Positions 100 through 27,995 of a stretch of DNA of 64,000 bases are shown piece after piece. Under the pieces are notes generated by a model, which was not told where the DNA came from, searched no databases, and saw only the letters and a list, made by a program, of their open reading frames with translations. The DNA comes from Hanleya hanleyi (Eukaryota > Mollusca > Polyplacophora > Lepidopleurida > Hanleyidae). The first letter of the stretch is position 1. Each line of letters starts with the position of its first letter. The stretch is taken from NCBI GenBank assembly GCA_036873755.1, contig JAVTVY010020521.1, positions 1 to 64,000 on the forward strand, written 5' to 3'. The translations under genes and the position numbers were made by a program.

Positions 100-105
100 T
101 TTATT
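100..105 (-). terminator. Poly(A) signal downstream of the ATPase gene
   Basis: AATAAA on the minus strand lies about 60 nt beyond the ATPase stop codon, at the spacing expected for cleavage and polyadenylation of that transcript. Confidence 0.55.
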
Positions 106-163
106 ATCCCCATCATCAAACACACACACCCCAGCTGGGGGCGCCACTGTGGGTGTGTTTACA

Positions 164-773
164 TTATTTGTGCATGTACACGTGGTGGGTCTCTCCGGGA
201 AAGATGCCGGTCCGTAGTCGAAGGTGGTCGGGAGTGGCTTGCTTGAGGTCGAACAGCATATACCCGTGCTGAGGGGTTGTGGCATCTTTGAAGGCTTCCA
301 ACGCAAACGGTGTGCGGCCGGGATACATCTGTCTCGCCAGGTGCAGCAGTTGAGTGGTATCTCTCGGGTTTTTTGAAGACCACCAGGTAGTGGGCATTTA
401 AGCTGATATTCCGATGTTCTTTGTTTTTACTGAACAGATTCTGCACAATGTAGATGATGCTGAGCCGTCGATGATGGCTGCCTTTGGTAAAGAGTTGGGT
501 GACCCGTGCATCCGTCTCCGCCATGAGATCATCCAGAACCACCAGGGTGTCGGGTTCCAAATCGGCCAGGTTGGGTAGGCCTTCCACGAACGTGATGTGG
601 GGCATTGCTGCATACGCTTCCTGCCATTCTCCGTAACACCACACGACTCTGGCAATGGGTGGGGTGATCATGCTGTCGGCGTGTTGAAGGAGCTTCCTGA
701 CGAAGTGCGTTTTGCCCGAACCCGTCGGTCCTGCGATGACGCAAGTGAAGGGATGCTGCCACCCAGGGTCCAT
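164..773 (-). pseudogene. FtsK/A32-like genome-packaging ATPase, frameshifted
   Basis: In adintoviruses and Polintons this ATPase is thought to pump DNA into the capsid. From the ATG at 773 the protein shows Walker A GPTGSGKT at residues 15-22, Walker B TLVVLDD at 76-82, and a following HHRRLSIIYIVQNLF segment (100-114), an order typical of the A32/FtsK-like packaging group. The frame breaks in a run of six A (369-374, plus-strand T) at about residue 134. The family-like C-terminal part continues in another frame to the stop at 164, so one base appears to be extra. The shift required is +1, and the run is not in phase for a -1 slippery site. This could be decay or a homopolymer assembly error. 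No clear TATA box lies upstream, and the start lies inside the membrane-protein ORF. Confidence 0.85.
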
Positions 774-1285: not shown

Positions 1286-1292
1286 CTTTATA
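1286..1292 (-). promoter_or_regulatory. TATA box of the membrane-protein gene, overlapping the integrase stop
   Basis: TATAAAG on the minus strand begins 55 nt before the ATG at 1,237. The TAA stop of the integrase gene is part of this box, so promoter and upstream coding end are fused. Confidence 0.6.
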
Positions 1293-2360
1293 GTCGTTTC
1301 ACCTGGTTGGCAGCGACCCAGGAATTGAAGGAACTGGGCCAGCCTTGCCATTTTACGAAATGAAACGGTTTGCCACGTCGACGTTCCGTTTTCAAAATCT
1401 GCTCCACCGTGTAGTAGTCTTGCTGTGTTTTTACAACAGGCTGTAATTCCGTGTCGTAAAACGTCCCCAGCAACGTTTCCCCTTGGAGATCTTCCAGTTC
1501 ATAGATTCGCCGCTGTCGGGGTAGGCGCCGTTTAATCAGGAAGTGCTCATCGCTCCAGTTGGGCAAGTAACTTTTCTCGAACTTGCCCTTGACTTTACTG
1601 ATCCGTACAGGGTCCCCGACCTTGTACACCGCCTTCGTCGCTCGCTGCGATGGCCTGGGGTACAAGACACGCCGGACTTGGGCTTCATTGCGTTGGGTCA
1701 CGGTAATGGGGGCTCTCTCTATACTTCGATGATAGGCTCGATTGTAACCCCTCACCAGTTTCGGGAGAACATCGATGTACCGCCTTGTATTCTTATAGGT
1801 GAAATATTTATACATGTGGCCTTTGAATGTCCTGTTGAACCTCTCCACCACGGAAGCCTTGGTCTCGTTGTACGTATGGAAGAAAAACACCTTCTGGGCT
1901 TTCAGAAACTGCTTGGAACGGTCTGTTGAGGAATTCCGTGCCTTCGTCGGTTTGCAAATACAAAGGTTTGCGCCCGGTCTTGAAGATGTCTTTGAACGCC
2001 GCTATGAGATTTGCCCCGTTTTCGTCCGGATGGGTACCACCCACGCATACTTGGATAGGATATCGATGCACGTCAAGATATACCGATTCTCATCGTTGTG
2101 TTTGGCAAAGGCGCTCATATCGACCAAATCCGCTTGCCACTGGGCATCTATTCCTCCCACGATGACCCGGTTCCGTAGAAAATGGCGACGGACAGATCGA
2201 TGTAAGGTATAGGTGTCTTGTCTTCTTAACCAATCTCGGACTTGGGCACGTTGTACCCCTGGGGTTTGGCCGCTCGATAGAGAGCCGACAATGCACTATA
2301 GGCCGCCGGACTGTCGGGACTGTAGTATAAGTTATCCAACACCTTCTCCCAGCGCTTCAT
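1288..2360 (-). pseudogene. Polinton integrase (DDE, rve-type) with C-terminal chromodomain, multiply frameshifted
   Basis: The enzyme would join element ends to host DNA. The start is an ATG at 2,360-2,358, 44 nt after a TATA box. Catalytic residues are visible: Asp at about 2,130 (context AQWQADLVDM), Asp at about 1,948 (QTDEGTEF), and Glu at about 1,845 (VVERFNRTF). The last two lie about 34-35 codons apart, as in D,D35E integrases. A chromodomain follows (YTVEQILK ... FVKWQGWPSSFNSW) and ends at the TAA at 1,288. The reading frame is broken near 2,250 (A/C/G runs), near 2,010 (a GGGG run) and near 1,900-1,920. The copy is therefore non-functional as assembled, unless those small indels are assembly errors. 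Confidence 0.9.
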
Positions 2361-2884: not shown

Positions 2885-3418
2885 TCACTGTCTCTCGTAT
2901 TTATAGGGAGAACCCCGTGAGATCAAAGGATCATTGGGCTGACTGAGTCTAGCGGGGTAATCAATGGCATCGTCGTCGGGTTCATGTAGTTGTTCATGGG
3001 GTTCAGCCGCCGCGTCTTCCATAGCACGAACCCACACCAATTGGTCGGGTGATCGGTCGTCCGGTGTAAACAACTGGTCCACAATAGGCACTACTTTCTC
3101 CAAGGCTGACCACACAGAGGGGCTTAGGAGGATACTTCGCGTAGGCTCTTGGTAGCGGCCCAGGCGTATGTGGACGGGAGGTACGGAATATACGTAGATG
3201 GCATTGTCCAGGTGGATGAGGTCTCCGTCCAACTCACCGCTCAACACCCGTTTAAATTTAGTCCAGCCATCACGCTGTAGCGTCACCGTATTCGATAGCA
3301 TCTCAGCGGGCGCCCAGTAAATAGCTTCATCGTCTTTCACGAGGATGACTTTATCTTGATAGACGTATAACCCCACACTGGGTGTAAGAGGCAGGATGGC
3401 TCGTAGATAAGTTGACAT
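2885..3418 (-). CDS. PC4-like protein with two related motifs, first copy
   Basis: The ATG at 3,418 gives 177 residues and lies 60 nt after the TATA box. Two similar motifs are visible: VTLQRDGWTKFKRVL (residues 45-59) and LSPSVWSALEKVVPIVDQ (98-115). Both have a strand followed by a W-containing helix, as at the end of PC4/SUB1 domains. An acidic tail (residues 132-160) follows. The last residues, PYKYERQ, are encoded by the TATA box of the next gene. The frame is open throughout, unlike its paralogue. The PC4 assignment comes from the motif pattern only and should be tested by structure prediction. The gene is otherwise unknown to me. Confidence 0.6.
   Translation of the reverse strand: MSTYLRAILPLTPSVGLYVYQDKVILVKDDEAIYWAPAEMLSNTVTLQRDGWTKFKRVLSGELDGDLIHLDNAIYVYSVPPVHIRLGRYQEPTRSILLSPSVWSALEKVVPIVDQLFTPDDRSPDQLVWVRAMEDAAAEPHEQLHEPDDDAIDYPARLSQPNDPLISRGSPYKYERQ
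2898..2905 (-). promoter_or_regulatory. TATA box of the frameshifted PC4-like gene, inside the upstream coding end
   Basis: TATAAATA followed by CGAG, 40-47 nt before the ATG at 2,858. The same CTATAAATACGAG context precedes the paralogue, showing that the promoter was duplicated with the gene. It lies within the last codons of the 2,885-3,418 gene. Confidence 0.6.
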
Positions 3419-3470
3419 GCTTGCTCTAAATGTCGAAGGGAGAATGACACACACTCTGTCTCATCCCTCG

Positions 3471-4118: not shown

Positions 4119-4161
4119 GACATGACCGCGGATGAATACATTCTTGCACTCACTCACACCA

Positions 4162-4527
4162 GCCGCCATCTTGTACCCAGCACCCACCATCCACACACGC
4201 CGCCATCTTGTACCCAGCACCCACCATCCACACACGCCGCCATCTTGTACCCAGCACCCACCATCCACACGCCGCCATCTTGTACCCAGCACCCACCATC
4301 CACACGCCGCCATCTTGTACCCAGCACCCACCATCCACACACACGCCGCCATCTTGTACCCAGCACCCACCATCCACACACGCCGCCATCTTGTACCCAG
4401 CACCCACCATCCACACACGCCGCCATCTTGTACCCAGCACCCACCATGCACACGCCGCCATCTTGTACCCAGCACCCACCATCCACACGCCGCCATCTTG
4501 TACCCAGCACCCACCATCCACACACAC
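4162..4527. repeat. Ten-unit array of YY1-like sites with higher-order structure
   Basis: GCCGCCATCTTG occurs at 4,162, 4,199, 4,236, 4,271, 4,306, 4,345, 4,382, 4,419, 4,454 and 4,489. Spacings are 37,37,35,35,39,37,37,35,35, so a five-unit block has been duplicated. On the minus strand the core is CAAGATGGCGGC, which matches the known YY1 consensus. Between cores the unit reads TACCCAGCACCCACCATC. Long ORFs on both strands here are artefacts of the repeat. Confidence 0.9.
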
Positions 4528-4534
4528 ACCCACG

Positions 4535-5110
4535 CATGCGCACACGCCCAATTGTGACGTCACCAAAGGTTCTGCGCATGCGCACTGACGCGCTATCCAC
4601 CCAATTTACTCCTATACCTCACTCGACCCCATTCGACCATTAGGGGCTCCCCTAGCTCCAACACGGCTATTTGCATACCCTTGGGCCACCGCGCATGCGC
4701 AGAATGCCGCTATTTCAACCCCACACCCAGTCCATTAGATGCCCTTTCATGAATGCTTCACTTTGATACCTCACTCGACCCCATCGGTCCACTAGGGGCT
4801 CCCCTAGCTCCAAAAAGGCTATTTTCATACCCTTCGGCCACCGCGCATGCGCACAATGCCGATATTTCAACCCCACACCCAGCCCATTAGATGCCCCCTC
4901 ACCTAAGCTTCACTTTGATACCTCACTCGACCCCATCGGTCCACTAGGGGCTCCCCTAGCTCCAAAAAGGCTATTTTCATACCCTTCGGCCGCCGCGCAT
5001 GCGCAGAAGGCCGATATGTCAACCCAACACCCAGCCCATTAGATGCCCCTTCACCTAAGCTTCACATTGATACCTCACTCGACCCCATCGGTCCACTAGC
5101 GGTCCCTACA
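4535..5110. repeat. Terminal repeats with NRF1-type palindromes
   Basis: Three diverged units of about 142-162 bp contain GCGCATGCGC at 4,691, 4,853 and 4,995, with a further site at 4,574. Each unit also carries CTAGGGGCTCCCCTAG, CACTCGACCCCAT and an ACCCAGCCCATTAGATGCCCC-type stretch. The same family, in the same orientation, lies near the right end of element B (27,500-27,985). Confidence 0.85.
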
Positions 5111-21980: not shown

Positions 21981-22186
21981 ATGGCGGCTAATGGCGGCTA
22001 ATGGCGGCTAATCTGCCATGTTGGAAAATGGCGGCTAATGGCGGTAATCCGCCATGTTGGAAAATGGCGGCTAATGGCGGCTAATCCGCCATGTTGGAAA
22101 ATGGCGGCTAATGGCGGCTAATCCGTCATGTTGGAAAATGGCGGCTAATGGCGGCTAATCCGCCATGTTGGAAAATGGCGGCTAAG
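21981..22186. repeat. 37-bp tandem array of GGCGGC / GCCATGTTGG motifs
   Basis: ATGGCGGCTA words alternate with CCGCCATGTTGGAA. The GCCATGTTGG core recurs at 22,015, 22,051, 22,088, 22,125 (GTC variant) and 22,162, a period of 36-37 bp. The array ends about 65 bp before the TATA box of the first zinc-finger gene, where an enhancer would be expected. Confidence 0.85.
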
Positions 22187-22249
22187 CTCTTGGAGCTCCG
22201 AATAGATCACCAGCTGAGTGTGCTAAACATAGATGACCAGCTAGCGTGC

Positions 22250-22285
22250 TATAAAAGGGAAGCGGCCTGGCCGTTTCATCAGACA
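22250..22285 (+). promoter_or_regulatory. Core promoter of zinc-finger gene 1
   Basis: TATAAAAG (22,250-22,257) and an initiator-like TCAGACA whose A (22,281) is 31 nt from the first T of the box. The predicted 5' UTR is only about 22 nt. An identical arrangement precedes gene 2. Confidence 0.75.
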
Positions 22286-22302
22286 CTGTGTCAGCCACCA
22301 AG

Positions 22303-23226
22303 ATGTTCACTTGCACAACTTGCCAGAAGCAGTTTATTCGTCTGCACGACTTGCGCCGCCATGAGGCCTCCACCCACAACGATGCACGGTATACTTGTAT
22401 AATCTGCTCACGGTCATTCAATCGGGAGGATAATTTACTGCGCCATGAGAGGGCACGCCACGCGGGTGCGACGGTACAATGTAACGATTGTGGTCGACTC
22501 TTCAAACGACCCAGTCGGTTAAGACAGCACCAACGTTGGATTCATACCCCGTCTCGACGGTTTGGGCGACAACTTTCCACTAAAGAGGAGCCGCGGAAGG
22601 TCAGACCAAGTGAAGATGAACCCGGGGAGACGAACGCCACTGGTGATGCGACGATGAAGAGCCCGCCTATACCCACAGTCCAGGAGGGCCTGGATATCCA
22701 GTCGGACCCCAGCGTTACGGTTTCGAGTCATACGCCTGACGACATCGAACATTTTCTGGACGAGCCCATAAATGTTCCTAGCGATCTCCTACAGGGCGTC
22801 CATCCAGTGAGTGACATCTATCGGCGCCATTGGCCCAAGATACGGCACTGTTTCCACCGTCATCGCCCTATTCAAGGCATCTACAATTTCCGACTGACCG
22901 ATCTCGCCCGTCTACGCAGCTACATGGAAGCCGTCTTCAATGACCAAGCTACGTCCTTCAAATTAAATCTGGCGTTTGGTTATGTGCTGAAGCATAAGGA
23001 GACAGACCATGTCCGATACTTTTACCCGAGCAGTAACATCCAGGTATTTGACCAACCGTTTACCATCATGGATAGGGCGTCACTAGAGACGATGCTGGAG
23101 AAACTGGACACCGTGGATCCCTTGGAATGGGCCCAACGACAACGCCCCAACACCAAGTGGATAGTGGAGAGGGTCACCAATGTTACGTTTTTCGTGACCA
23201 AGCTGACCGACCAACCCATCGGTTGA
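22303..23226 (+). CDS. C2H2 zinc-finger protein with conserved C-terminal domain, copy 1
   Basis: The first ATG after the TATA box is at 22,303 (context ACCAAGATG), giving 307 residues. Three complete C2H2 fingers are visible: C4/C7/H20/H25, C32/C35/H48/H53 and C60/C63/H76/H81. A Ser/Pro/Glu-rich linker (about 82-165) follows. A conserved C-terminal domain (about 170-307) includes YNFRLTDLARLRSYMEAVF, FKLNLAFGYVLKHKETDHV and NTKWIVERVTNVTFFV. From memory of the families, this C-terminal part resembles the region found ahead of protein-primed B-family polymerases in Polinton-like elements, so it may act in DNA binding or replication. That link is an inference. No polymerase motif follows. It is one of two tandem transcription units. 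Confidence 0.8.
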   Translation: MFTCTTCQKQFIRLHDLRRHEASTHNDARYTCIICSRSFNREDNLLRHERARHAGATVQCNDCGRLFKRPSRLRQHQRWIHTPSRRFGRQLSTKEEPRKVRPSEDEPGETNATGDATMKSPPIPTVQEGLDIQSDPSVTVSSHTPDDIEHFLDEPINVPSDLLQGVHPVSDIYRRHWPKIRHCFHRHRPIQGIYNFRLTDLARLRSYMEAVFNDQATSFKLNLAFGYVLKHKETDHVRYFYPSSNIQVFDQPFTIMDRASLETMLEKLDTVDPLEWAQRQRPNTKWIVERVTNVTFFVTKLTDQPIG

Positions 23227-23345
23227 ACGCGTCACCCGTGCACTGATGAATACCATAACATGCCGTACAGACTCTATATGTCTACATGCTGGTCGTTGAC
23301 TTGCGCTCAGTAAACACTTGTACCTAATGTGACGGTGCGTTAAAT

Positions 23346-23351
23346 AATAAA
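23346..23351 (+). terminator. First poly(A) signal of zinc-finger gene 1
   Basis: AATAAA 120 nt after the stop codon. A second signal lies at 23,447-23,452, just past the hairpin, so two alternative 3' ends are possible, with or without the hairpin. Confidence 0.6.
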
Positions 23352-23397
23352 ACATGGTGTTTGATATTTCAATTTGTTTTGCTATGAACATACTAAA

Positions 23398-23430
23398 CAT
23401 ACCTAGGGCGGCTCCCCCAGCCTGGGTATG
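23398..23430 (+). promoter_or_regulatory. Conserved 3' UTR hairpin, copy 1
   Basis: Arms 23,398-23,409 and 23,420-23,430 form 11 pairs with one bulged A (23,405) around the loop GGCTCCCCCA (23,410-23,419). AATAAA starts 17 nt after the hairpin. The copy at 25,070-25,102 has the same loop, bulge and spacing, with compensatory changes in the stem. Confidence 0.75.
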
Positions 23431-23488
23431 ATGAAACATTAGGGATAATAAACTGTATGAACATTGCTGAACTTGTTGTTATTCATGT

Positions 23489-23572
23489 GGTATAATACAG
23501 CACAGATTTGGTATGATGCGAGACAGATATGGTATAATACAGCAAAGATATGGTATAATGCACGACAGATAT
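23489..23572. repeat. 21-bp tandem repeat, four units
   Basis: GGTATAATACAGCACAGATTT-type unit repeated exactly every 21 bp (23,489, 23,510, 23,531, 23,552), between the two zinc-finger units. Confidence 0.9.
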
Positions 23573-23680
23573 GGATGGTCCATCTCTAGACCAAATACCT
23601 TCCTGCACTTTCCTAAAATGCCCACTGTCGCTACTACTCGTACTGATGACGTCACCGATGACGTCACAGATAACGGGAAC
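23573..23680. promoter_or_regulatory. Single CRE-pair unit upstream of zinc-finger gene 2
   Basis: TGACGTCA at 23,647-23,654 and 23,659-23,666, within a segment homologous to the array units at 25,400-26,105 (shared GATGGTCCATCTCTA and CGCTACTACTCGTACTGATG). It lies about 170 bp upstream of the gene 2 TATA box. Confidence 0.75.
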
Positions 23681-23834
23681 TATCCGGATATTTCAGTTTC
23701 TATCGGAATGCATCTGAGAACAGAAGAACCTATGGAGGTTGATTGTTCTTGACGTCCGCGCCTACATCCGGGTTCTTGTCGCTGACGTCCAAGTTGAACT
23801 GATTGTGCTAAAAATAGATCACCAGCTAGCTTGC

Positions 23835-23870
23835 TATAAAAGGGAAGCGGCCTGGCCGTTTTATCAGACA
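23835..23870 (+). promoter_or_regulatory. Core promoter of zinc-finger gene 2
   Basis: TATAAAAG at 23,835-23,842 and TCAGACA with its A at 23,866, the same 31-nt spacing as gene 1. The flanking GATCACCAGCTAGC and GGAAGCGGCCTGGCCG are also shared with gene 1. Confidence 0.75.
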
Positions 23871-23887
23871 CTCTGTCAACCACCAAG

Positions 23888-24820
23888 ATGTTCACTTGTA
23901 CTACGTGCTCGAAATCATTCACTCGTCTGCACGACTTGCGCCGCCATGAGGCTACCAAGCACGACGGAACCGCCCGGTATAGCTGTACGATATATAGGCC
24001 TACACTGTCGTTTCAGCGCCCGGATCATTTACAGCGCCATGAAGGTTCAATTCATGGGCCACCCAAGCGTCCATGCGAAGAATGTGGTCAACTCTTCAAA
24101 CGACCCAGTCAGTTAAAACGGCATGAGCGTTTGATTCATGGTCCGTCACCACGGCATGAGGGACAACTTTCCACTAAAGAGGCACCCAGGAGGGACAGAC
24201 TCACTGAAGATGAACCCGGGGAGACGAATGCCACTGGTGATGCGATCACGGAGAGCCCGCCTATACCCACAGCTCAGAAGAGCCTAGATATCCAGCCGGT
24301 CCCTAGCATTACTGTTCCCAGTCATACGCCTGACAACAACGAACATTTTCTGGAAGATGCTGTGGATGTTCCCAGCGATCTCTTACCCGAAGATCATCCA
24401 GTGAGTGAGATGTATCGACGCCATTGGTCCATGATCCGACACTGTTTCCACCGTCATCGCCCTATATTGGACTTGTACAATTTCCGACTGACCGACCTCG
24501 CCCGTCTAAGCAGCTACGTGGAAGCCATCTTCAATGACCAACTTACATCCTTCACATTAAATGTAGCATTTGGGTACATCTTATGCCATAAGATGACGGG
24601 TGAATTGCGCTATTTCTATTCCCGTGCCATCAACCCAGTGTACGACCATCCTTTCACAATCATCAATCGGGCGTCGCTAGAGCCCGTGCTGGACCAAGTG
24701 GACACTGTGGATCCCTTGGAATGGGCCTATGAACAGCACCCCAACACCAAGTGGATAGTGGAGAGGGTCACCAATGTTACGTTCTTCGTGGTTAAACTGA
24801 CCACCACCCCCATCCGATGA
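23888..24820 (+). CDS. C2H2 zinc-finger protein with conserved C-terminal domain, copy 2
   Basis: 310 residues from an ATG in the same context as copy 1. Finger 1 (CTTCSKSFTRLHDLRRHEATKH) and finger 3 (CEECGQLFKRPSQLKRHERL) are intact. Finger 2 is damaged: its second Cys is Tyr (CTIY) and two residues are inserted before the helix. The C-terminal domain is well kept (YNFRLTDLARLSSYVEAIF, FTLNVAFGYILCHK, TKWIVERVTNVTFFV). The whole unit, from promoter to 3' hairpin, is a tandem duplicate of the unit at 22,250-23,452. Retention of the C-terminal domain with loss of one finger suggests changed DNA specificity rather than simple decay. Confidence 0.8.
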   Translation: MFTCTTCSKSFTRLHDLRRHEATKHDGTARYSCTIYRPTLSFQRPDHLQRHEGSIHGPPKRPCEECGQLFKRPSQLKRHERLIHGPSPRHEGQLSTKEAPRRDRLTEDEPGETNATGDAITESPPIPTAQKSLDIQPVPSITVPSHTPDNNEHFLEDAVDVPSDLLPEDHPVSEMYRRHWSMIRHCFHRHRPILDLYNFRLTDLARLSSYVEAIFNDQLTSFTLNVAFGYILCHKMTGELRYFYSRAINPVYDHPFTIINRASLEPVLDQVDTVDPLEWAYEQHPNTKWIVERVTNVTFFVVKLTTTPIR

Positions 24821-24919
24821 AAGTATTCACCCATGCACTGATAGATACTCAGAATGCGCAAACAACTATCTAAGGATATGTTGCCTCAACGGTATCCTGG
24901 CCTGCCCGACGATGATTAG

Positions 24920-24925
24920 AATAAA
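24920..24925 (+). terminator. First poly(A) signal of zinc-finger gene 2
   Basis: AATAAA 100 nt after the stop codon. A second AATAAA at 25,119-25,124 follows the hairpin, as in gene 1. Confidence 0.6.
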
Positions 24926-25069
24926 CGGTTCAGAGCGAACATGGCCGAAGATGGAACTTTCTGAAATGGAGACTTCTGATTAGACAAGAATACATCTAAC
25001 GGACAGGAACGAATATGACAGATGCAAATGGTGGCCTCTGATTGGACAAGAATCTTCTTGAATTGTAAA

Positions 25070-25102
25070 TATACCCAACGCGGCTCCCCCAGCGTGGGTA
25101 TG
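25070..25102 (+). promoter_or_regulatory. Conserved 3' UTR hairpin, copy 2
   Basis: Arms 25,070-25,081 and 25,092-25,102, bulged A at 25,077, loop GGCTCCCCCA (25,082-25,091). Relative to copy 1, one pair is swapped (G-C to C-G) and three others change within pairing rules. AATAAA again starts 17 nt downstream. Confidence 0.75.
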
Positions 25103-25384
25103 ATGTAACATTGGGGAGAATAAACTATATGAAAACAAACTTCTTGTTCTTGTTGTTCTCTCATGTGTCATCCTTGTTGTTGCTGCTGTTGTTGTTCTCT
25201 CTCCGGTCTATATCATGGCGTTATGTTAGAGTGTTAAGGTGTAACGACGGGCGTTGACGGGCGTCACTGCATTTCGAAGAATGAGTGACAATTCCATGGA
25301 ATATCAGAGCTTCTGAGCTATTTCACCAGGGCGTTGAAGCATTAAGAATGGCGTTGGTGGGCGTTGCTACAAGATGACACCTCA

Positions 25385-26105
25385 CACGACGCATTCGCAC
25401 CGCGGATGGTCCATCTCTACACCAAATAACATCCTTCACTGCTAAAAATGCCCACTTTCGCTACTACTCGTACTGATGACGTCACCAATGACGTCACAGA
25501 TGCTGTGGATATCCCTCAAATCGGGATCTATACCCCGAGAGCTACAACTTGACCCCTCCCATGACGCATTCGGGCCAAGGATGGTCCATCTCTACACCAA
25601 ATACCATCCTTCACTGCTAAAAAATGCCCACTTTCGCTACTACTCGTACTGATGACGTCACCAATGACGTCACAGATGCTGTGGATATCCCTCAAATCGG
25701 GATCTATACCCCGAGAGCTACAACATGACCCCTCCCATGACGCATTCGGGCCAAGGATGGTCCATCTCTACACCAAATACCATCCTTCACTGCCCCAAAA
25801 TGCTCACTTTCGCTACTACTCCTACTGATGACGTCACCAATGACGTCACAGCTGCTGTGGACAGCCCTCAAATCGAGGTCTGCACCCCGAGAACTACAAG
25901 ATGACACCCCACACGACGCATTCGGACTGAGAATGGAGCATCTCTACCCCAAATACCTTCCTTCACTGCCCCAAAATGCTCACTTTCGCTACTACTCCTA
26001 CTGATGACGTCACCAATGATGTCACAGATGCTGTGGACAGCCCTCAAATCGGGGTCTACACCCCGAGAGCTACAAAATGACACCTCCCAGGACGCATTCG
26101 GACCG
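25385..26105. repeat. 176-bp tandem array with paired CRE sites
   Basis: Four units, each with two sites in a TGACGTCACCAATGACGTCA arrangement, begin at 25,477, 25,653, 25,829 and 26,004 (period 175-176). Seven of the eight sites are perfect palindromic CREs; the last is TGATGTCA. Each unit also carries CATCTCTACACCAAATACC and CCTCAAATCG.GGTCTA. The units lie downstream of zinc-finger gene 2 and toward the right terminus. Confidence 0.9.
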
Positions 26106-26400
26106 TGAATAGCCCATCTCTAACCCAAACACACCCACACACACCCCAAAAAATGCCTGCTTTCTACACTACGGCCAGGCTGCGCATGCGCACATTGACG
26201 CGTCTTGCACTTAAACACACGCCATTCTGACTCTAACCCACACAAGCTTCACTTTGACACCTTCCACGACCCATTCGAACCGTGAATAGTCCATCTCTAC
26301 CCCAAACACATACCCACATACCCCCCAAAATGCCTGGTTTCTATACTACGGCCAGACTGCGCATGCGCAGACTATTGACAACGTACGAACCATTAGTCCA
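26106..26400. repeat. 177-bp units with NRF1-type palindromes
   Basis: Two units with GCGCATGCGC at 26,182 and 26,359, sharing CATTCGAACCGTGAATAG, CCATCTCTACCCCAAACACA and CTACGGCCAG. The start of the unit resembles the CRE-array unit, so the arrays are probably related. Confidence 0.75.
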
Positions 26401-27225: not shown

Positions 27226-27478
27226 ATACCCCATATAGGCATTTTCCCGTAATTTAGAATAAAGTCCGTATTCCGTATTTTTTCAGGAAAAATTTTACAT
27301 ACACCCACCCTGGAACTAGGGGGAGATTACTCTATTGATAGGCAAGCCCCGTTAAGCTCGGCGACCTATATACCCCCCATACCCCATATAGCCATTTTCC
27401 CGGATTTTTCGATAAAGTCCGTGTTCTGGGTTGTTTTTTTCAGGAAAAATTTTACATGCACCCACCCATGACTGGATG
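27221..27478. repeat. Two-unit repeat of about 150 bp
   Basis: CCCCCATACCCCATATA, ATAAAGTCCGTRTTC and CAGGAAAAATTTTACAT are shared between 27,221-27,315 and 27,373-27,475. Confidence 0.75.
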
Positions 27479-27479
27479 C

Positions 27480-27985
27480 CCCTTCACCTAGGCTTCACAT
27501 GGATACCTCATACGCCTCCGTCGGCCCATTAGAAACCCCGCTCGATCCCAAAACGTCTATTTTCATACCCTTTGGCCACCGCGCATGCGCAGAATGCCGA
27601 TATTTCAACCCAACACCCAGCCCATCAGATGCCCCCTCACATAGGCTTCACTTTGATACCTCACTCGACCCCATTGGACCATTAGTGGCTCCCCTAGCTC
27701 CAAAACGGCTATTTTCATACCCTTTGGCCACCGCGCATGCGCAGAATGCCGCTATTTCAACCCCACACCCAGCCCATCACATGCCCCCTCACATAAGCTT
27801 CACTTTGATACCTCATATGACCCCATCGGCCCATTAGTGCCTCCCCTAGATCCCAAAACGTCTATGTCCATACCCTTTGGCCACCGCGCATGCGCAGAAT
27901 GCCGATATTTCAACCCCACACCCAGCCCATCAGATGCCCCTTCACGAATGCTTCACTTTGATACCTCACTCGACCCAATCGGACC
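27480..27985. repeat. Right terminal repeats of element B (NRF1-type)
   Basis: Units of about 152 bp with ACCGCGCATGCGCAG (GCGCATGCGC at 27,581, 27,733 and 27,886), homologous and co-oriented with 4,600-5,110 of element A. They share CCCTTTGGCCACCGCGC, ACACCCAGCCCAT and CTTCACTTTGATACCTCA. Confidence 0.85.
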
Positions 27986-27995
27986 ATTTTATATA

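Follow-up and report, generated by a model that had tools for sequence, protein, structure and literature searches.

The stretch of DNA analysed here, hereafter the window, comprises 64,000 nt of the genome of the polyplacophoran mollusc Hanleya hanleyi (assembly GCA_036873755.1, contig JAVTVY010020521.1, positions 1 to 64,000). It carries Polinton genes, among them the end of an integrase-to-ATPase unit and two zinc-finger genes, and behind the ATPase frame and each zinc-finger gene lies a small hairpin with a bulged A, followed by an AATAAA poly(A) signal (Table 1). A preliminary description had noticed this hairpin in the 3' untranslated regions (3' UTRs) of the zinc-finger genes. We find that it belongs to a module that recurs at unrelated genes, at near-fixed spacing from the poly(A) signal and in sense orientation, and whose divergence between gene types preserves base pairing.

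Table 1 Hairpins, poly(A) signals, Polinton genes and repeats; positions are those of the window unless a locus is named.
Feature	Position	Strand	Description
Hairpin copy 1	23398..23430	+	In the 3' UTR of zinc-finger gene 1; stem of 7 bp and 4 bp on either side of the bulged A, topped by an apical GG/CC and a CUCCC loop
AATAAA poly(A) signal	23447..23452	+	16 nt past hairpin copy 1
Hairpin copy 2	25070..25102	+	3' UTR of zinc-finger gene 2
AATAAA poly(A) signal	25119..25124	+	16 nt past hairpin copy 2
Hairpin copy 3	125..157	-	Directly 3' of the Polinton ATPase reading frame; missed in the preliminary description
AATAAA poly(A) signal	100..105	-	19 nt past hairpin copy 3
Zinc-finger gene 1	22303..23226	+	Three C2H2 fingers and a domain related to the Polinton PolB N-terminus
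Zinc-finger gene 2	23888..24820	+	Paralogue of zinc-finger gene 1; PF00096 recognises two stretches
Core promoter and 5' UTR of zinc-finger gene 1, TATAAAAGGG	22249..22302	+	5.6% different between units
Polinton packaging-ATPase frame (A32/IVa2-like)	159..773	-	End of integrase-to-ATPase unit
Chromodomain frame	1288..1890	-	Chromo 5.9e-7, above cut-off
152-nt tandem repeats near Polinton end	4614..5106		86% identical over 484 nt to 27503-27986
153-nt tandem repeats, homologous, beyond zinc-finger genes	27475..27988		Tie the zinc-finger genes to the same Polinton lineage
Capsid-unit hairpin arrays	L094 3180-3335; L096 3430-3580; L097 3200-3380		Loci of the Hanleya hanleyi genome

Copies 1 and 2 were confirmed on the sequence: both have the loop GGCTCCCCCA, 11 pairs and a bulged A at position 8. 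Their differences are also as first described, with one pair swapped (G-C at 23407-23422 against C-G at 25079-25094) and three further single differences compatible with pairing; the reported 17-nt distance runs from the last stem base to the start of AATAAA, leaving 16 nt between them in both copies. Folding is predicted to continue into the 10-nt loop, where G13 and G14 would pair with C20 and C21, leaving a CUCCC pentaloop and an unpaired A22. In the zinc-finger copies the bulge may instead be drawn at nucleotide 9 with A8 pairing to U26, which is impossible in the ATPase copy; across 36 distinct hairpins this alternative leaves 89.6% of cells paired, compared with 91.9% for the bulge at position 8. 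The two zinc-finger units differ at 38% of synonymous sites and, with 78 gap columns, over 50% of the 3' UTR ahead of the hairpin block, whereas the 68-nt block containing the hairpin and AATAAA is gap-free and differs by 13.2%. Together with the core promoter and 5' UTR, it is the best-kept non-coding part of these units. Because the block has diverged far less than the synonymous sites and the rest of the 3' UTR, the likeness of hairpin and AATAAA between the two copies is, on this comparison, greater than chance.

The third copy was found by a mismatch-tolerant search for the loop (match at 134-147, minus strand) followed by a structural scan. All 11 of its pairs are intact, the bulged A is the same and 9 of the 10 loop letters agree. 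Relative to copy 1, upper-stem columns 9, 10, 12, 25 and 26 differ, and where copy 1 has U-A at pair 3-31, copy 3 has C-G. All 33 pair cells of the three copies are standard, with two-sided changes at three pairs; when the changes separating the ATPase copy from the zinc-finger copies are placed at random, full pairing survives in 0.3-1.2% of trials. A perfect hairpin of this shape lies within 60 nt upstream of only 3 of the window's 150 AATAAA sites, namely at copies 1, 2 and 3.

The 2.48-Gb genome from which the window comes was searched. The exact 14-mer GCGGCTCCCCCAGC occurs 16,675 times, compared with 2 for its reversed control, and a looser motif (AA, the bulged A, the loop and the right spacing, with no stem required) occurs 25,206 times, compared with 58. 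Among the copies sampled, at least three types of gene precede the hairpin: the PolB-N-like zinc-finger genes, a second zinc-finger gene (one C2H2 finger with a different C-terminal part, as judged by reading the sequence alone) and the integrase-to-ATPase unit. Genes were assigned by the nearest upstream match, which put window copy 2 with the second zinc-finger gene although it follows zinc-finger gene 2, so that these two classes overlap. Among the 100 motif matches listed, 96 fit one of three stem classes, one-letter variants included: GGGC, found at zinc-finger gene 1; ACGC, at zinc-finger gene 2 and the second zinc-finger gene; and CAGT, at the ATPase.

Spacing and orientation were counted in 61 distinct contexts selected by the exact 14-mer, with no condition on stem or poly(A) signal. 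AATAAA follows within 42 nt in 52 of them and exactly 16 nt on in 48, while the chance of encountering A(A/T)TAAA within 42 nt at the same loci is 2.6%. All 11 pairs are kept in 45 contexts, 10 in 8, 9 in 3, 8 in 3 and 3 in 2. When the nearest of four query proteins was sought on both strands, the gene lay upstream on the same strand in 59 contexts, none was present within 1000 nt in 2, and none was opposite. Selection by the 14-mer covers columns 11-24, which are biased accordingly. The constancy of the loop noted in the preliminary description applies to copies 1 and 2 but not genome-wide: 81 contexts, mostly picked by the loop, show eight loop forms, 65 of the contexts having GGCTCCCCCA. 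Columns 13 and 20-22 are invariant across the 36 distinct hairpins, a sample likewise partly chosen by loop; two false positives (L037:789 and L074:2216) were excluded from both sets. Some counts, namely ATPase spacing, gene assignment and the loop forms of the 81 contexts, partly required a poly(A) signal; the 61-context counts and the ATPase recount given below did not. Variants of the module with another flank, for example ttatgatggagggg or ctgtgatggagggg ahead of AATAAA, were seen at L019, L024, L029 and L038 of this genome, the L024 variant carrying a two-sided change at pair 6-28.

The module might instead act in DNA, as a replication, packaging or recombination site lying at gene ends by coincidence; in favour of this, hairpins are frequent at replication and packaging sites, and the copy number (25,206 by the motif) is very high. 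Such a site would not be expected to lie in sense to the gene in 59 of 61 contexts and never opposite, or exactly 16 nt before AATAAA in 48. Furthermore, G-U pairs, which are good only in RNA, stand at pairs 1, 5, 9 and 12 in 6, 7, 9 and 11, respectively, of the 42 hairpins aligned for the covariation test below. We regard this explanation as very improbable.

A second sample was independent of the hairpin. Thirty ATPase loci, one of them the window, were chosen by protein match; as the best protein matches, they are young copies. The hairpin (TAAA ahead, 7 or more pairs and 7 or more of the 10 loop letters, irrespective of a poly(A) signal) is present in 26, with AATAAA within 42 nt, at 19-21 nt, in 25 of the 26. 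When the poly(A) signal is required, 25 of 30 loci pass, the exceptions being L044, L047, L052, L071 and L072. Changes in the loop are confined to pentaloop columns 16, 18 and 19; G13, G14, C20, C21 and A22 are kept. Downstream of the hairpin at these loci stands a promoter-like sequence, GATAAAAAGG, and then a new gene, which places the module at the end of the integrase-to-ATPase unit. In L051, an amplified ATPase form, the predicted fold re-registers the stem on a downstream TGTGTTT.

A covariation test was applied to 42 aligned hairpins out of 46 distinct ones and compared with 500 shuffles, and it indicates pair-preserving changes beyond chance. The covariation score was 0.304, compared with 0.166 (sd 0.013) in shuffles, none of which scored as high; sliding the partner columns gave at most 0.092. 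Paired cells amounted to 91.3% (82.0% in shuffles), and cells with two-sided changes numbered 38 (17.6 in shuffles). The two-sided changes occur at pairs 3-31, 4-30, 6-28, 9-26 and 10-25.

Several observations weigh against selection on the fold. The number of two-sided pairs, 5, is close to the 4.1 of the shuffles (153 of 500 as high), as are the 14 further pair types to their 15.0 (438 of 500 as high); the covariation rests on three main gene-type lineages and a few later events, at pairs 4-30 and 6-28. Copies 1 and 2 alone retain 11 pairs in 2.3-3.5% of trials in which as many changes of the same classes are scattered randomly over the stem, so the covariation in this pair by itself would be weak. 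Their folding z-scores are moderate (-1.9 and -0.8 for copies 1 and 2 over 68 nt; -2.2 and -2.7 over 33 nt); those of L051 and the common ATPase form L045 are near zero (-0.4 and -0.6), and the predicted minimum-energy fold of L045 departs from the hairpin in its upper part. Unpaired stem changes in other copies, which the preliminary description had held would tell against its proposal, do occur: pair 3-31 is unpaired in 12 of the 42 distinct hairpins and broken in 24 of the 26 young ATPase copies, of which 25 are short of at least one pair, the window's alone keeping 11 (10 pairs in 20 copies, 9 in 4, 8 in 1). Across 67 zinc-finger-class copies, kept only if they had at least 8 pairs, 14 transitions were wobble-side and 12 mismatch-side, the latter including compensated cases, so that no pairing bias is apparent. 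The wobble-side pattern has 12,177 copies genome-wide, a count covering this pattern alone. Also against a shared 3'-end module stands the absence of the hairpin from the capsid unit at L094, L096 and L097 and from four Polinton-like loci of other sources (L011-L014).

These single changes would suit a history of shared ancestry alone, in which the 3' end was copied between genes by recombination and kept by recent amplification without selection on folding. Copying clearly took place, given that TAAA, hairpin and AATAAA can be aligned throughout all three window copies. Recent spread is equally evident, as the best 150 of 27,187 first-look ATPase candidates share 100% identity across 130 residues, pointing to a recent Polinton burst. 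Copying by itself, however, does not account for three stem pairs changed on both sides with 11 pairs intact in the window copies, an outcome that random placement rarely yields, or for a module so much less diverged than synonymous sites (13.2% versus 38%), and we consider it an unlikely explanation. An absence of wobble-over-mismatch bias is what would be expected if most insertions decay freely, and most copies do seem to decay neutrally; we therefore read the unpaired changes as neutral decay of dead copies, not as absence of function. Evidence for selection would then come from comparing gene types with one another, a comparison that involves few independent lineages. The RNA element under selection put forward in the preliminary description, one that acts at the 3' end, is supported by its occurrence at unrelated genes in sense orientation, the near-fixed distance to AATAAA and the stem swaps between gene types. 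We regard action at the RNA level as well supported and the step at which it occurs as inferred.

Taken together, we think it reasonably likely that the hairpin is part of a structured module at the 3' ends of the Pol II transcripts of this Polinton lineage, with a role in 3' processing, export or stability. The module consists, in order, of TAAA, the bulged hairpin with its conserved C-rich apex, about 16-21 nt and AATAAA, and a number of unrelated genes or units of the lineage carry it in the sense direction. Its RNA would fold in the nascent transcript immediately upstream of the poly(A) signal, where a trans-acting protein, of host or element origin, may read the apex (GG-CUCCC-CC-A) and the bulged A; once bound, the hairpin would promote cleavage and polyadenylation, export or stability. 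No introns were seen in the module-bearing reading frames, and this, together with the close AATAAA, makes aid to cleavage and polyadenylation or to export the most plausible role. The hairpin thus probably helps to end or export Polinton messages, although an effect on stability would presumably leave the same traces.

The capsid unit suggests another possibility. In the loci L094-L097, a frame matches, at 34-49% by segment, a frame of L011 that is tentatively labelled the double jelly-roll major capsid protein (MCP) and has no Pfam match. The 3' UTR of this unit contains a run of four or five AAGCCC-cttgttct-GGGCTT hairpins, in one case with AAGTCC, followed by ACGTG-gttgttct-CACGT, the last stem ending 9-15 nt ahead of AATAAA in all three loci that reach that far; L095 ends earlier. 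As predicted from the sequence, the array is a second hairpin type with a common loop and different stems. Each unit might accordingly bear its own 3' RNA label, the bulged hairpin marking the integrase-ATPase unit and the zinc-finger genes and the UUGUUCU-loop tandem array marking the capsid unit, with an element-encoded RNA-binding protein reading the label and so timing or sorting the transcripts. The zinc-finger proteins would be candidate readers, their own genes bearing the bulged hairpin. Against this, their Pfam matches are generic C2H2, and although one model is named for double-stranded RNA binding, this is no evidence that they bind RNA. We hold such labelling to be a tentative possibility, clearly less probable than a general role in ending or exporting messages.

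The four Polinton-like loci read from other sources lack the hairpin. A search of genome_contigs for the ATPase returned five loci, L011-L015, of which L015, a weak Xanthomonas match, was not used. L011 and L012 are animal-type Polinton sequences filed in the metagenome-assembled genome (MAG) of a bacterial endosymbiont of the tubeworm Escarpia laminata and are therefore taken as tubeworm DNA; L014, which comes from the MAG of a mussel symbiont, may be another such case, and L013 and L014 are more distant. The structure nearest to the hairpin, on the minus strand of L012 at 3011, has 9 pairs and 8 of 10 loop letters but a G for the bulged A and no AATAAA in 37 nt, and was rejected. A scan of the 60 nt ahead of AATAAA for any strong fold, not the bulged hairpin itself, gave no z below -1.8 for the 3 sites of L011 or for the part of L014 that was scanned, and one among the 24 sites of L013; AATAAA is absent from L012. 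In IMG/VR, the exact 24-place hairpin pattern gave 0 loci, and the 10 loci retrieved by a looser pattern were attributed to chance (at most 8 of 11 pairs, no AATAAA in 37 nt). Protein searches of IMG/VR with the zinc-finger protein, a zinc-finger alignment and the ATPase, the last both singly and as an alignment, found no relatives, nor did the zinc-finger protein query against INPHARED phages.

As to the carrier, the chromodomain integrase, A32-like ATPase, capsid-like and PolB-N-like proteins are those of a Polinton/Maverick or adintovirus. The first two, which are expected of a Polinton, are present at the window's left end. The packaging-ATPase frame matches Pox_A32 (2.4e-5, above cut-off) and has 757 ATPase relatives, and a frame in L051 of the same genome that overlaps the chromodomain frame (1288-1890) reads as a longer Polinton integrase. 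In its C-terminal third, the ATPase frame (159-773) is out of the relatives' frame; P0007, P0009 and P0010 appear to shift frame near the same place, and copies open further exist. A frame at 2885-3454 looks PC4-like by eye and has no Pfam match.

The zinc-finger genes, tandem paralogues with a dN/dS of 0.40 and a dS of 0.53, lie 17-20 kb from the left-end Polinton part. Their link to Polintons, asserted in the preliminary description, is upheld by the C-terminal domain, which matches the PolB N-terminus of a tubeworm-MAG Polinton at 38% over 161 residues, and by the homologous tandem repeats flanking the two regions. Of the protein-primed PolB of Polintons, only N-terminal-like domains were found; compared with L011 (39-4232), the zinc-finger genes (22303-24820) look like free-standing PolB N-terminal parts joined to C2H2 fingers. 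Two 37-nt tandem arrays (4155-4527 and 21990-22185) contain GCCGCCAT or CCGCCATGTTGG motifs, which we take to be YY1-like, and 176-nt repeats at 25366-26129 contain paired TGACGTCA, presumably CRE-like. These may be arrays of putative host factor sites at element ends.

Polintons are among the largest mobile elements of animals, and the ending, export and timing of their transcripts have, to our knowledge, not been described. The hairpin, whose motif occurs over 25,000 times in a single genome, offers a handle on these steps, a tag for element transcripts in RNA sequencing data and a large body of natural data on how RNA structure evolves. Unit-specific labels, if real, would amount to a structured-RNA regulon inside an animal mobile element.

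The preliminary description knew of no comparable element in Polintons, and Polinton- and mimivirus-centred literature searches likewise returned none. One comparison is the "hairpin rule" of Mimivirus, a large double-stranded DNA virus, in which hairpins at transcript 3' ends are tied to polyadenylation, replace the eukaryotic signal and are not conserved in sequence; a viral RNase III-like enzyme cleaves them internally in the cytoplasm (PMC4402537). Both systems place hairpins near transcript 3' ends, but the Mimivirus hairpin takes the place of AAUAAA while the Polinton hairpin is followed by AATAAA (within 42 nt in 52 of 61 contexts), and the Mimivirus palindrome is unconserved while the Polinton apex and lower stem are conserved across gene types. 

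Histone mRNAs, which are intronless, end without poly(A) in a short conserved 3' stem-loop. The Polinton hairpin is likewise short, conserved and located at the 3' end of an intronless gene set, but it has AATAAA downstream, a signal in the sequence only. A scan of window positions 22000-26000, covering the two zinc-finger copies, gave no Rfam match up to an E-value of 5. We regard the hairpins of Mimivirus and of histone mRNAs as functional analogues rather than relatives, because defining features of theirs, namely replacement of the signal and an unconserved palindrome in the one and the Rfam histone match in the other, were looked for here and are lacking. In the same literature searches and Rfam scan, no viral element of this shape and apex turned up. 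Hairpins ahead of the poly(A) site and elements for RNA export or stability do exist in intronless viral mRNAs, and what these share with the Polinton module is a folded RNA close to the poly(A) site in nuclear transcripts that lack introns.

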